A stretch of 64,000 bases of DNA from an uncultured Sunxiuqinia sp. (lineage in GTDB: Bacteria > Bacteroidota > Bacteroidia > Bacteroidales > Prolixibacteraceae): contig NZ_CANLZV010000016.1 in NCBI RefSeq assembly GCF_947495665.1, forward strand, positions 1-64,000. The letters are read 5' to 3'. Every line of letters starts with the position of its first letter. The first letter of the stretch is position 1. Under the pieces are notes generated by a model that was not told where the DNA came from, searched no databases, and was given only the letters and a program-made list of their open reading frames with translations. The position numbers and the translations under genes were made by a program. This document shows positions 421 through 45,465 of the stretch, one piece after another.

Positions 421-779
421 CGTCCCTGCAGCCGTGCGGCAAGCCAGAAAATCTGTTGGCTCGCTTGCCGCAGTATTGCAGCAAGCAAAAAAATGTTCTG
501 GCTAGCTTGCTGCAGCGCTGCAACAGGCTCGCAAACTTCTTGGCTTGCTTCCCGTACGGCTGCGGCAAGCAAAAAATAAATTGGCTCACCTCTCGCACAG
601 CTGCGGCAAGCCAGCAAACTTATTTGCTTGGCTCCTGCAGCGCTGCAACAGGCAAGAAATTTTTGTGGCTGGGCTGTCGCAGCCGTGCAACAAGCGAAAA
701 ATTTTGGTGGCTGGGTTGCCGCACGCTTGCGGCCAGGCCCTTACTCCATTGGCTTGGCTCCTGCAAGCGTGCAGCGGCA
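421..779 (+). repeat. Tandem 42-bp palindromic array A, nine units
   Basis: Nine units each consist of a 24-bp imperfect palindrome and an 18-bp A/T-richer spacer. Palindromes begin near 421, 463, 505, 547, 588, 630, 672, 714 and 756, so the period is 42 bp with one 41-bp step. Typical cores are GCTTGC-CGCA-gtat-TGCA-GCAAGC and a perfect TGCAGCGCTGCA centre in units 3 and 6. Spacers follow a loose nnnAAAnttnttGGCTn pattern. Arms vary but remain largely complementary, which suggests the palindrome itself is selected. The array family is the same as 43982-44214. Unlike that locus, no helical-protein gene follows; guaB does. Confidence 0.85.
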
Positions 780-22733: not shown

Positions 22734-22922
22734 CCTTGGTTAGGGCATCAACTTTGTTGGTTGGCTTGTCAACTTCTTCGGTTGGGTCATCTACCGCTCT
22801 GGTAAACACGTTTACCTCTCTGGTAGCCTCATTTACTTCTCTGGTAAGGTCATTTACCTCTCTGGTAGACTCATTTACCTCTCTGGTAAGGTCATTTACC
22901 TGTCTGGTAGAGTCATTTACCA
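22734..22922. repeat. Tandem 21-bp palindromic array C1, nine units
   Basis: GGT starts each unit at 22738, 22759, 22780, 22801, 22822, 22843, 22864, 22885 and 22906, an exact 21-bp period. Units carry an inverted repeat such as GGTAA-ggtcat-TTACC. The first three are degenerate (GGTT...AAC). From 22843 on, units alternate between GGTAAGGTCATTTACC and GGTAGACTCATTTACC-type forms, so there is a 42-bp higher-order period equal to the unit of arrays A and B. The array reads open as seven-residue repeats on both strands but has no start signal, so I do not call a protein. Confidence 0.88.
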
Positions 22923-23196: not shown

Positions 23197-23886
23197 ATGA
23201 CCACCAAATTTAATTTTAGCTTTGGCACACTGACACAACGTGCCGACCGCATTGACAGCCTGCTGCTGCGCGATGCCGCCGAATTTGCCGCGCTGGGCTA
23301 CGAGGATAGCTACCGTGCCGATCTGAAGGCCAATGTAGACGTCTTTCGCCAGTTGCCTTCGGACGACTACTGGCTGGGGCAGCAAATGCTGCAAACCGAG
23401 GCCAAGAAGAAAGCCCTGGAAAGCCTGACCGACCAGTTGATTAACCTGCGTTTCCGGGCCAAACTGGCTTTGGGAGAGCAATCGGTGGATTACCGGGCGC
23501 TGCGCTTTGGCAAAATCCAAACCATGAAGGAGCAAGACCTGATTATTTTTGCACACCATGTAAGTACTACCTGCCGCCAGATGCTGGATAAACTGGACCG
23601 CCCAAACATTACCGAAGAGATGCTAACCAACCTGGATACGACCACCCGGCAGCTGGACGATGCCATTGATGAGCAAAAGAAAATGATTTCGAACCGGGAA
23701 GCCAAGACGTTTGAGCGCGAAGAGAAAGCCAATGCCATTTACACGCAGATAGCCGAGATTTGCGAGGTGGGCAAAAAGATTTGGGAAGAAAGAAACGAGG
23801 CCTATTACAACGACTACGTGATCTACGGCTCGAAGGAAGCCATTGAAGAAGATGAAGAAACCGAGGCCGAAGAATCGGCAGAGTAA
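23197..23886 (+). CDS. Small all-helical array-associated protein
   Basis: This 229-residue soluble protein is almost entirely predicted helix (long heptad-like stretches, for example residues 60-100 and 140-200) with an acidic tail, EEDEETEAEE. N-terminal FNFSFGTLTQRADRID and C-terminal KKIWEERNEAYYNDYVIYGS resemble a Bacteroidota-only family of hypothetical proteins I have seen, but I cannot name a Pfam entry with certainty. It starts 275 bp after 21-bp array C1 and is followed by a terminator, so it is monocistronic. Its placement parallels the DUF6261-like gene at 44410 behind array B. Composition is normal for the chromosome, unlike the AT-rich genes just upstream. Confidence 0.75.
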   Translation: MTTKFNFSFGTLTQRADRIDSLLLRDAAEFAALGYEDSYRADLKANVDVFRQLPSDDYWLGQQMLQTEAKKKALESLTDQLINLRFRAKLALGEQSVDYRALRFGKIQTMKEQDLIIFAHHVSTTCRQMLDKLDRPNITEEMLTNLDTTTRQLDDAIDEQKKMISNREAKTFEREEKANAIYTQIAEICEVGKKIWEERNEAYYNDYVIYGSKEAIEEDEETEAEESAE

Positions 23887-42433: not shown

Positions 42434-43597
42434 TTAATTGTATTTTCTTGTTAGTTTGTCCATTTCTCTATGAAAGATTTCCATCGAATCATCATCTATT
42501 TCCAATTTTAATATTGACTCAACATTTACAGATTCTTCTCCATTTTTAATTCTTTCAAGTCCATTATGAATGTCATCTTTTATTTTTTTTGGATATTTCC
42601 ATATTTGTTCGGCAGCCTTTATTGTATATTGAGCAAAACTGTCTCGTAGTATTTTATATTCGTCTTCAACTGAGGTTGATTTTATGTCATTGTACCAGTT
42701 TATCATCTCGCCGTATAGTCTGGCTAAAGCTCCTGCAACATAAAATAGTCCTTTTAAATCTGATGGTACACCAGGTTCTCCATAATATGTTTTAAATGCT
42801 TTATTAAAAAGATTATTCCCAGAATCAATAATGTTGTCTAGGGACTGTAAGTTTTGAGTTAACCACTTCTGAAGTTCAATGTCATTATCAATTCTAGTTT
42901 TAGATTTAAATAGAATGTGATATTCTAGGTCATATTTTAATTCTTCAAATTTTGTAAGTTCATCCTCCAATGCTTGTGCAAAGAATAAAACTTCAAACAT
43001 ATCTTCACGATTTAGAAGAATATTTATAGCATCTGTGGATAGCTTTTTATAAAAATCAGGAAGATTAGATTTAAATTGAGTCTTTAGATTAAGAGCTTCT
43101 TTAAAAAGATAAGAGAACTGTGTTTTGAGGACTTTAATAATATCTTGGGCTTTTTCAAACTCAAAGCACCAATTATTATCTGTTTCCCTTAAGTCTTGAA
43201 CAAATTCAAATATTTTGGTTGAATCTACACTATCAGAAAAATCTCCATTTTGATTCTTTTTCCAAATTGGTAAGATTGAAATTATTTGTCTGTAAATGAA
43301 AATATAGATTGGTATTCCAAGTTTTTTGGCATATAAATATTCAGTATTTGTTATGGATTTCCCATTTTCAATTTGATAGCCATAACGATTACCGACTACT
43401 AAAACGAAAATATCTGTATTCTTTTTAACATTTTCAATACAATTCTCAATAGTATCTTTTTGTGGATTGATTGGAAAATCGTGATTTTCTGACAAATAAG
43501 GTGTGTATCCTTGGTTATAGAAATAATCAAACAAATCTGCCCTAATCTGTTTTAAATCATAACAAGTAGAACTAAGAAAGATTTTTAATTGACTCAT
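42434..43597 (-). CDS. DUF4062 (TIR-like) domain protein
   Basis: This 387-residue protein has an N-terminal DUF4062 domain at about residues 1-100: LKIFLSSTCYDLKQIRADLFDYF and TDIFVLVVGNRYGYQIENG with SITNTEYLYAKKLGIPIYIF. DUF4062 is a TIR/flavodoxin-like fold found in many NTPase and defence proteins. The remaining 280 residues are helical and unrecognised, with no NTPase motif seen. AT-rich and bounded by cassette-like sequences, so likely an acquired defence or stress gene. Confidence 0.75.
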   Translation of the reverse strand: MSQLKIFLSSTCYDLKQIRADLFDYFYNQGYTPYLSENHDFPINPQKDTIENCIENVKKNTDIFVLVVGNRYGYQIENGKSITNTEYLYAKKLGIPIYIFIYRQIISILPIWKKNQNGDFSDSVDSTKIFEFVQDLRETDNNWCFEFEKAQDIIKVLKTQFSYLFKEALNLKTQFKSNLPDFYKKLSTDAINILLNREDMFEVLFFAQALEDELTKFEELKYDLEYHILFKSKTRIDNDIELQKWLTQNLQSLDNIIDSGNNLFNKAFKTYYGEPGVPSDLKGLFYVAGALARLYGEMINWYNDIKSTSVEDEYKILRDSFAQYTIKAAEQIWKYPKKIKDDIHNGLERIKNGEESVNVESILKLEIDDDSMEIFHREMDKLTRKYN

Positions 43598-43649
43598 ATG
43601 TTTTAGCTAATTCTTGGTTTGTTTAATATTTTGCATAACACTTATATCC

Positions 43650-43732
43650 CCACAGTCTTGTGGATCTATTCGCATTAGCTGGATGTATTTTTGTTGGTTA
43701 ATAGACTGCTTAGGGGTGGTTGATGCGTGTAG
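43650..43732 (+). repeat. 83-bp conserved block, copy 2
   Basis: Gap-free match to 86-168, about 75 of 83 bases. It begins with the palindrome CCACAG-tc-TTGTGG, where one arm base differs from copy 1. Array B starts 332 bp further on. A GCATAACAC-type motif directly precedes it, so it may mark the left boundary of the array unit. Confidence 0.75.
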
Positions 43733-43862
43733 ACCGGTTCTTTCATTTTTCCTTGGTTTGTCGGTTTATAAATACATTTTGTTTAAATGTAGGAATTTAT
43801 TGTTTTAAAGCAGGCATTTGATCCGCTGAATTTCGGATTGGATTGAATCGTGCTACTCCTGG

Positions 43863-43886
43863 TCTCCGCTAACGCTTAAACGGAGA
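43863..43886. repeat. Conserved-loop hairpin
   Basis: The stem TCTCCG (43863-43868)/CGGAGA (43881-43886) encloses loop CTAACGCTTAAA. The stem differs from that at 41786-41821, but the loop is nearly the same, which points to a real element. Confidence 0.5.
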
Positions 43887-43981
43887 GAATCCAATCGAGG
43901 GCTTTCGCCTGCAAGCCTCGTAAACAGCGGCTTGTCGCAGCCAGCTCCATGGGCAAATACTCATAACTGACTAATTTGAAC

Positions 43982-44214
43982 GCCTCCCACAGCTGTGCGA
44001 CAACCTCTCAAACCTGTTGGCTGGCTTGCCGCAGCCGTGCGACAAGGGAACAAATGTTGTGGATGGCTTGGTGCAGCCCTGCGACAGCCTTTCAAACTTG
44101 TTGGATAGCTTCCCGCAGTACTGCGACAAGGAAAGAATGTTGTGGCTGGCCTGCCGCAGCCGTGTAACACCCTTTCAAACTTGTTGGATTGCCTCCCGCA
44201 GTGCTACTGCGTGT
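43982..44214 (+). repeat. Tandem 42-bp palindromic array B, six units
   Basis: Palindromic 24-bp cores begin near 43982, 44024, 44066, 44108, 44149 and 44191, for example GCTTGCCGCA-gccg-TGCGACAAGG. Five 17-18-bp spacers alternate between two forms, one like TTTCAAACTTGTTGGAT and the other like GAACAAATGTTGTGGATG, giving an 84-bp higher-order period. Array A has the same core and spacer family but less regular alternation. It ends 195 bp before the DUF6261-like gene. Confidence 0.87.
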
Positions 44215-44409
44215 AAATCGTACAGCATGCCAAATAGCGCCTAAAAGGAGTCGTAAAGCAAAATGCTGTGTAGCATAATTTTAGGTATTGACTCAGGTAG
44301 CCATTTGCCGTAATTTTATTTAACAAAACCGGAATTAGCAAAACGCTTTCCAACACCAAAATTTAAACAACCTTTTAAAACCCATCTATTCATCCTTTAA
44401 TTAAACCAC

Positions 44410-45159
44410 ATGGCTAAAATTCTAACACTTTTATTGTACAAACTCCGCAACGGAGAATACTTTCAATTTATGAGCGACTTTAAAAAGTTGCTCCTGAAAC
44501 TTAGCCCCGCAGCCATCCATTCGGAGGCCGAATTTACTGACTTTAACACGGCCTTTACCAAACTCGACGAAGAATTGCGGGTGGACCAGGGCAGCGTTTT
44601 AACCAAAGAATTACAAAACATAGATCAGGACCGCGACAATATCTGGCGGGCCATCGATATGCGCATCAATGCGACCTTGTTGTGCACCATTGCTGAGGAA
44701 GTGGAGGCTGCCAAGCGCCTAAGGCGCCTGTTTGATCTGTATGGCGACCTTCGCCGCATTTCGTATAACGAAGAAACAGCAGGTTTAACCAATTTGCTGG
44801 GCGATTTGGCCAAGCCGGGAAATGCCGGTTTTGTGACCACCTGTGGGCTCGACACTTGGGTGACACGCTTAAACGAATTAAATGGAGCTTTTAAGGCGAA
44901 ACAAAATGAACGCGATACGGAGCTGGCCTATAAAAGCAGTGGAAGCGCCAAGTTAATTCGTCTCGAAATTGATCCGCTGTATAAACTGATGGTTGAACGG
45001 GTAAACGCCTTGGTAAGCTTGAACATGCAAACGCCTGAAATTGAGAATTTCATTAAAGAGCTTAACCAAAAAATTAAAACCATGGAGCATACTTTGGCTA
45101 CCCGTGAAGGTAGAGCCGATAGCGAAAAAGAAGAACCGATCTCATCAGAAGTGGATTGA
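44410..45159 (+). CDS. All-helical DUF6261-like array-associated protein
   Basis: This 249-residue soluble protein is predicted to be nearly all helix. N-terminal LYKLRNGEYFQFMSDFKKLL matches my memory of the Bacteroidota-only DUF6261 family, followed by DQDRDNIWRAI and TIAEEVEAAKRL. No catalytic motif, signal peptide or membrane segment is seen. The C terminus is charged (EGRADSEKEEP). The gene stands alone behind the 83-bp block and array B, with a terminator after it. A possible promoter TTGAC near 44289 and TAATTTTA near 44313 would place array B upstream of, not inside, the mRNA. Confidence 0.7.
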   Translation: MAKILTLLLYKLRNGEYFQFMSDFKKLLLKLSPAAIHSEAEFTDFNTAFTKLDEELRVDQGSVLTKELQNIDQDRDNIWRAIDMRINATLLCTIAEEVEAAKRLRRLFDLYGDLRRISYNEETAGLTNLLGDLAKPGNAGFVTTCGLDTWVTRLNELNGAFKAKQNERDTELAYKSSGSAKLIRLEIDPLYKLMVERVNALVSLNMQTPEIENFIKELNQKIKTMEHTLATREGRADSEKEEPISSEVD

Positions 45160-45231: not shown

Positions 45232-45355
45232 TTGTTTGTGCCTGTGCCGATAAAAATCAGCCCCCGGCCTACCTTTTGTTTAGGCGCAGCGGAAACGAGG
45301 AGAAGGCTGTGGTAATTTCAACACGAAAATTGGAAGAGGTTAACAGCCGTATTTT

Positions 45356-45395
45356 CCATCCATCCATCCATCCATCCATCCATCCATCCATCCAT
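45356..45395. repeat. Tetranucleotide microsatellite (CCAT)10
   Basis: Ten perfect CCAT units followed by CCAC, in the gap between convergent genes. No reading frame crosses it, so it is not a translational phase switch. It could still change length by slippage and alter 3' ends. Confidence 0.95.
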
Positions 45396-45465
45396 CCACT
45401 GATGGCATAATCTAAAGTCATTCAAACAGCTGGACTGGAGGCTCAATAGCCAGATCATTAACTTT

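Follow-up and report, generated by a model that had tools for sequence, protein, structure and literature searches.

The window, the whole 64,000-nucleotide stretch of DNA that was analysed, is part of a 4.7-Mb draft genome (G000:C16:1-64000). We identified in it a gene whose product passes the gathering cut-off of the Pfam family DUF6261 (PF19775; E 7e-41, 140.2 bits against a cut-off of 27) and, upstream of this gene, a tandem array of 221 bp for which TRF gives periods of 42 and 83 bp, corresponding to about 5.3 units of 42 bp (Table 1). Direct reading shows CGCAG..CTGCG inverted repeats in the units. The preliminary description of this DNA had placed a 42-bp palindromic array before a DUF6261-like gene, and both are present; the order of array and gene also stands, whereas the gap of 195 bp becomes 208 bp when measured from the end of the TRF array. 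The gene is flanked by a DUF4062 gene and a BD-FAE esterase gene (Pfam), and eleven perfect copies of TCCA (45355-45398; TRF) lie downstream of it. Relatives of the protein found in one scan came from Maribellus luteus, three Draconibacterium records and, far more distantly, Parabacteroides; Draconibacterium orientale FH5T has such a relative, and the Parabacteroides locus (n = 1) has no TRF array. In the AlphaFold2 monomer model (alignment of 23 sequences; mean pLDDT 86.6, pTM 0.54) residues 1-8 are extended and long helices follow from residue 14 on, the first two spanning residues 14-31 and 39-56.

Table 1. Arrays, genes and candidate promoter of the array-protein loci in the window (positions in the window).
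Feature	Position	Strand	Basis and remarks
Orphan array, unit family of the window DUF6261 array	421..770	.	TRF; upstream of IMPDH (guaB) gene; possible trans target
21-bp array, TTTACC-5-GGTAAA inverted repeats	22785..22921	.	TRF; upstream of second-family gene
Second array-linked helical protein, family F2a, 229 aa	23197..23886	+	Homolog comparison, structure model
Palindromic-unit array, ~42 bp period, protein-linked	43982..44202	.	TRF; related arrays at orthologous loci
Promoter-like site, Bacteroidota type: TTG, 20 nt, TAATTTTA	44288..44318	+	Score 8/9; candidate, between array and gene
DUF6261 protein, 249 aa	44410..45159	+	Pfam match; AlphaFold2 model all helical after extended N-terminal segment

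The second array of the window, with TRF periods of 21, 42 and 63 bp and, on direct reading, the inverted repeat TTTACC-tctct-GGTAAA, precedes gene 23197-23886. The product of this gene has no Pfam match at E ≤ 1. Against the NCBIfam family PQLLE (NF052641) it scores 22 bits (E 1.1e-4), below the cut-off of 80, and judged by sequence the two would be distantly related at most. Its model (pLDDT 87.0, pTM 0.70) has no helix in residues 1-8, followed by helices at 9-25 and 37-52 and long helices at 56-92 and 140-196. The best PDB comparisons of both models are generic helical bundles, and neither Pfam nor PDB structure comparison recognised a known DNA-binding domain in the array-linked window proteins. 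No Pfam ribbon-helix-helix family matched the window proteins at E ≤ 1; the modelled arrangement of an extended segment and two helices invites comparison with ribbon-helix-helix proteins.

A conserved 83-bp block upstream of the 42-bp array had been proposed as a further part of the system. The block is real, with eight clear copies in its own genome (window positions 43640-43745 and 61-167, and L009, L012, L013, L014, L015 and L017), yet only one of the seven DUF6261 loci of this genome carries it, and we therefore left it out of the pair. Its left edge is sharp, at CAACACTTGTAT..CCACAGTCTTGTGGAT, and its left neighbours vary, some copies adjoining a gene start that points away and others an identical flank at contig starts. 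The block looks like the end of a cassette or an insertion site and, given its copy number, its varying left neighbours and its presence at one DUF6261 locus, it is a dispersed repeat unrelated to the array-protein pair. Directly left of it lies the DUF4062 gene (42434-43597, minus strand), possibly cargo of the insertion site.

TRF detected a tandem array within 650 bp upstream in 92 of 135 DUF6261 loci, and the period of these arrays is 41/42 bp or double that, save for one of 22 bp. Arrays of 21/42-type period lie downstream in 5/135 loci, and 1/135 has only an array of another period upstream. As control, mechanical ORFs of at least 100 aa were taken from an unselected 1.2 Mb of two genomes; an upstream array of 21/42-type period was present at 15 of 830, giving an odds ratio of 116 for the DUF6261 loci. 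The 135 loci are a non-random sample (seven from the window's own genome, 28 of 29 further returned loci, 20 phylum-wide and 80 hand-picked, mostly from multi-copy genomes); L116 (below the Pfam cut-off) and L043 (less than 300 bp upstream) are not among them. L307, L309 and L310, whose contigs have the lengths of those of L265, L230 and L205, appear to be identical to these three, so that they are not independent loci. At the threshold used, 43 of the 135 loci have no TRF array. Among the 20 TRF-negative loci of a 76-locus set (650 bp upstream), eight exceed the 99th percentile of the controls in autocorrelation at lag 41 or 42; one of these, L113, exceeds the controls at many other lags too. 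The pairing of array and protein is real and recurs across genera. The enrichment comparison proposed in the preliminary description (92/135 against 15/830) strongly supports its claim of a recurring pair of array and helical protein, with differing array sequences and differing protein families.

The window's own genome has seven DUF6261 genes, six of them with an upstream TRF array of 41/42-bp period; at the seventh, spaced TGGATAAAC/GTTTATCCA palindromes were seen by eye only. At one of these loci (L005:1435-2148, minus strand) the DUF6261 gene has an array of eight units and, farther upstream, another one of 21 bp; downstream of it there is a RAYT-like gene. The family is patchily distributed, since it is found in 75 of 140 genomes of the same taxonomic family, with up to 14 copies each, and in 12 of 395 genomes drawn evenly across the phylum.

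The layout also recurs in the second family. Upstream 21/42-bp arrays, mostly of 21 bp, are present at 11 of 12 intact close homologs of gene 23197-23886 (F2a), the farthest 722-862 bp away, and a paralog of this gene also has one; L080, L085 and L098, in which the open frame was broken or mislocated, were left out. This bears out the earlier observation of a second array before a small helical-protein gene. PQLLE-like genes have upstream arrays of the 21/42-bp type at 15 of the 21 loci examined out of 30, the frame being short or misplaced in some (L143, L145). The F2a and PQLLE counts were read by hand at looser TRF settings (score 50, 1,100 bp), with no control set of their own. In the related subfamily F2b the array lies downstream in 16/24 loci and upstream in 4/26, counts in which one gene is broken (L296) and three are distant relatives (L303-L305). 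A profile-profile comparison of DUF6261 with F2 (hhalign) gave a probability of 0.45 percent and an E-value of 0.13, that is, no detectable sequence homology. DUF6261, F2 and PQLLE-like genes have in common that their product is small and helical and that the array units are spaced by two or four B-DNA turns. A small gene in L015 (2158-2655, minus strand), found also in L013, encodes a helical-looking protein with an LPKMSDG motif and has a 42-bp array (L015:1778-1937) beyond its 3' end; it possibly represents another array-linked family.

Autocorrelation of the upstream regions of 76 DUF6261 loci and 300 control regions over lags 15-60 was clearly raised at lags 41 and 42 only (means 0.52 and 0.55, against 0.33 and 0.35 in controls); lag 21 did not stand out. 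The best period is 41, 82 or 83 bp in 46 of the 92 upstream arrays. These numbers are not multiples of three, and coding repeats were therefore ruled out. Inverted repeats are commoner in the consensus units than in shuffled units (mean z 1.65), with 18 of 54 arrays at p ≤ 0.05 and 36 of 54 with no inverted repeat beyond shuffles, and several units have the form TTTC/TTCC-N-GGAA/GAAA.

The unit sequence is mostly private to a gene. Across 20 genomes with at least two arrays, only 5 of the 132 same-genome pairs of DUF6261 paralogs have matching arrays, and arrays are unmatched even at 75-80 percent protein identity (L198, L199 and L203, one genome). Arrays that lie apart from such genes, here called orphan arrays, reuse the unit of a protein-linked array in 4 of the 12 compared in the window's own genome. 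The orphan at window 421-770 and the orphan L183 (C2) both match the window DUF6261 array and also match each other; a 41-bp orphan array upstream of an ECF sigma factor gene (L061, G000:C1) matches the DUF6261 array of L004; and the orphan L017 (C14) carries the unit of the array upstream of gene 23197-23886. By eye, a second, degenerate repeat stretch of about 21 bp lies upstream of the same ECF sigma factor gene (both stretches at L061:10520-11184). Orphans also match one another (L012-L194 and L013-L015), and no other pair in this genome scored 40 or more. L012:880-1170 and L194:18835-19122 share a GCCAGACGA unit, and no protein partner was found for it. The seven orphan arrays of G114 have no match among the 11 protein-linked arrays compared, which are a partial set for that genome.

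Among related proteins, array identity goes with the N-terminus. Among 118 pairs of DUF6261 proteins of at least 60 percent identity, arrays match in 53 and do not match in 50; 15 ambiguous pairs were left out. For the 73 pairs with an overall identity of 0.70-0.92, residues 1-20 predict an array match with an AUC of 0.948, against 0.783 for residues 26-60 and 0.646 for residues 61-249, and the best single columns (window numbering) are 7, 10, 22, 11 and 8, followed by 189. The partial correlation of N-terminus and array is 0.739, a value reached in 0 of 2000 within-group permutations of the arrays; that of the rest of the protein given the N-terminus is 0.281. Within individual protein groups, the N-terminal effect exceeds that of the rest of the protein in five of nine only. 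By a crude rule, proteins with RN or RD within residues 9-22 have 42-bp arrays in 35/42 cases and those without have 41-bp arrays in 36/44 (p 1.5e-9, which ignores relatedness; the two types are largely two clades). Exceptions exist in both directions. Arrays are unmatched at N25 of at least 0.84 in L050-L230, L205-L265, L058-L247, L247-L266, L209-L241 and L209-L242, and matched at N25 of at most 0.80 in L042-L047, L208-L235, L213-L216, L107-L122 and L052-L258. The match of L213-L216 probably stems from a separate 21-bp repeat further upstream. N25 values for L203 rest on fewer aligned residues because its automatic start is probably 11 codons too early. F2b, considered as a linkage-free test, offered too few close pairs, one of them with matching arrays.

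The reading that we favour, at a probability of roughly 0.64, is that each DUF6261-type protein binds its own double-stranded DNA array as a series of sites in helical phase and, in trans, also reaches orphan arrays. It is built on features computed from sequence: the association, the period, the excess of inverted repeats, the diversity of units among paralogs, some shared orphan units, the covariation with the N-terminus, and promoter-like sites. Each locus would match a small helical protein to a tandem array of the sites that this protein binds. Dimers may bind the palindromic core of each unit, and the N-terminal ~20 residues, which comprise the extended segment and the start of the first long helix, may read the array sequence. 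With one unit per 21 bp in F2 and per 41/42 bp in DUF6261, which corresponds to two or four helical turns, all bound copies would lie on one face of the DNA, where they could pack into a nucleoprotein cluster. The DUF6261 promoter is probably located between array and start codon, so that such a cluster would be able to regulate its own gene. Orphan arrays with the same unit would be trans targets, regulated or bridged by the same protein, and paralogs would be insulated from one another because each has its own unit sequence. As far as sequence allows a judgement, the loci appear to form a hitherto undescribed system in which DNA-binding proteins are matched to DNA address tags.

A narrower form of this best explanation is a plain transcription factor with multiple operators, whose array would only tune expression of the protein's gene and of a small regulon (guaB, ECF sigma); we regard it as possible, though doubtful. 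The position of the arrays fits it. Promoter-like sites (TTG, 18-21 nt, TANNTTTG) with a score of at least 8 occur in 36 percent of 83 array-gene spacers, against 11 percent of shuffled spacers and 5 percent inside arrays, and orphan arrays precede the IMPDH gene and the ECF sigma gene. Against it, the upstream DUF6261 arrays are long for simple control (median 195 bp), a single genome may have up to 14 DUF6261 paralogs, and some orphans (L164, L167, L173 and L183) are 400-600 bp away from the nearest start or sit where two ORFs converge. The downstream arrays of F2b are likewise a poor fit to simple promoter autoregulation.

It is also conceivable, and in our view unlikely, that arrays and 5' gene ends only hitch-hike together by recombination, with no mutual recognition. 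In codons 1-25 the synonymous sites likewise follow the array, which suggests that the early codons are in part transferred together with spacer and array as one cassette, and at a syntenic locus (L203/L219 against L215) array and spacer have been exchanged en bloc, with differing early codons. Linkage or cassette-like recombination is therefore part of the explanation for the covariation of N-terminus and array. Hitch-hiking, however, leaves the presence and the helical period of the arrays unexplained, and it is at odds with L042, L047 and L048. In these three loci there is hardly any difference in codons 1-7 or in the near spacer (L048 diverges more in the far half of the spacer), whereas codons 8-11 read SRGR in L042, TLRY in L047 and TLRP in L048, and the arrays differ in step: L047-L048 match (score 114), L042-L047 are weakly related (49) and L042-L048 are unmatched (27). 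This is the best case for recognition.

Quite unlikely, too, is that the arrays are selfish or neutral minisatellites, or MITE/REP-type repeats such as BrickBuilt or RAYT-linked REP, which happen to accumulate beside these genes. In the unselected 1.2 Mb of G000 and G114, TRF gives 25 arrays, of which 17 have a best period of 20-22, 41-42, 63 or 82-84 bp (8/15 in G000, 9/10 in G114), most of them with no known array-linked gene nearby; such periods are thus the rule for tandem arrays in these two genomes. Either they are a general property of minisatellites, which weakens the argument from period, or most such arrays belong to the system. The 23-nt repeats held by the BrickBuilt elements of Porphyromonas gingivalis, as described in part of PMC4596501, would also fit an origin as selfish repeats. 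The RAYT-like gene of L005 had raised a link to RAYT, which we rejected: in a motif scan, the RAYT signature was present in 4 of 136 loci of about 3 kb only. An origin as minisatellites or REP-type repeats is further opposed by the strong upstream enrichment at DUF6261 genes, by the enrichment at the second family and by unit sequences that are mostly private to each paralog and go with the N-terminus of its protein.

The preliminary description had also suggested transcription of the array into hairpin RNA, for which we found little support. In the 24 of 54 arrays that passed the filters, mismatches between the arms of the inverted repeats are balanced (30 G-T, 26 A-C; 40 other single changes), and as G-T is not favoured, nothing points to selection acting on one RNA strand. 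Ten double arm changes were seen; six keep the pairing where 1.5 are expected, an excess that hairpins could also explain. Across 40 arrays the sense strand does not fold more strongly (mean z -1.1) than the antisense strand (-1.8). Of the two protein-linked window arrays, that of 21 bp exceeds its shuffles in folding (z -4.0), and that of 42 bp gives -0.55 and -1.1. Terminators were found in 0/89 array-gene spacers, by a rule so strict that shuffles also gave 0, and none was found in window 43600-44420 against 1.1 in shuffles; both are weak tests. Neither window array matches Rfam. Since the promoter-like sites follow the array, the array is more likely DNA upstream of a promoter than leader RNA. 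A type III toxin-antitoxin-like system, in which repeat RNA made from the array would bind the protein and hold it in check, is the least likely reading and an improbable one: the repeats upstream of a small gene resemble ToxIN (as outlined in part of PMC8860590), and the folding of the 21-bp array and the pairing-keeping changes would suit it, but the periods follow the DNA helix, F2b arrays lie downstream, and the balanced mismatches, strand-neutral folding, promoter-like sites and Rfam result given above speak against it, the terminator counts only weakly.

Binding of the arrays as double-stranded DNA, the favoured reading, can be extended to a class. We propose, tentatively, that DUF6261, F2 and PQLLE-like loci form a Bacteroidota class of addressable DNA-tag systems, in which insulated clusters on phased and orphan arrays would organise or mark the chromosome and specificity would change by exchange or mutation of the array together with the first ~20 codons. 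Of the three roles suggested earlier (DNA organisation, hairpin RNA and defence), a putative role in DNA organisation or regulation is the best; defence has no direct support, as neither the DUF4062 neighbour nor either of the array-linked proteins of the window has a PADLOC match at E ≤ 1. The pairing of arrays with these proteins was not found described in the literature on DUF6261, PQLLE and tandem repeats (preprints outside the scope), where DUF6261 is mentioned incidentally only and PQLLE not at all. The pairing places functionally uncharacterised protein families of Bacteroidota, and intergenic minisatellites that usually receive no attention, in a function-bearing context. If the favoured reading is true, a single genome would contain many protein/DNA-array pairs that are orthogonal to one another; these could serve as natural tools for visible tagging of chromosomes and as a system for testing how specificity in DNA binding diversifies. 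The predicted match of N-terminal residues to array sequence is directly testable with purified proteins.

Several known systems share parts of this organization. REP/BIME elements are clustered short palindromic extragenic repeats linked to RAYT transposases. The arrays described here are likewise clusters of short, often palindromic extragenic repeats, and differ in their helical period, in having a mostly private unit per protein gene and in the rarity of the RAYT signature. The BrickBuilt elements of P. gingivalis, in the portion of PMC4596501 that describes them, carry their 23-nt repeats within one MITE family with leader and tail; they too are tandem repeats of about 20 bp between the genes of a member of the Bacteroidota, and that portion reports no dedicated neighbouring protein family. 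In the type III toxin-antitoxin system ToxIN, tandem repeats also lie upstream of a small protein gene; there, according to the part of PMC8860590 concerned, the promoter lies ahead of the repeats and a terminator stands between them and the gene, whereas here the promoter-like sites come after the array, the search for a terminator gave none (a weak test) and the period is helical. The closest working analogy is omega/parS of plasmid pSM19035, in which, as set out in part of PMC9499535, the ribbon-helix-helix ParB protein omega has contiguous 7-bp non-palindromic heptads at its own and other promoters, and contiguity matters. Unlike those described there, the units here measure 21, 41 or 42 bp and are often palindromic, the proteins are of ~250 aa and chromosomal, with many paralogs and mostly private units, and the genes flanking the window DUF6261 gene encode a DUF4062 protein and an esterase and no ATPase, whereas omega/parS partition involves a ParA ATPase. 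Common to both are contiguous arrays of short sites, a small and here putative DNA-binding protein, and the same type of array at the protein's own gene and elsewhere.
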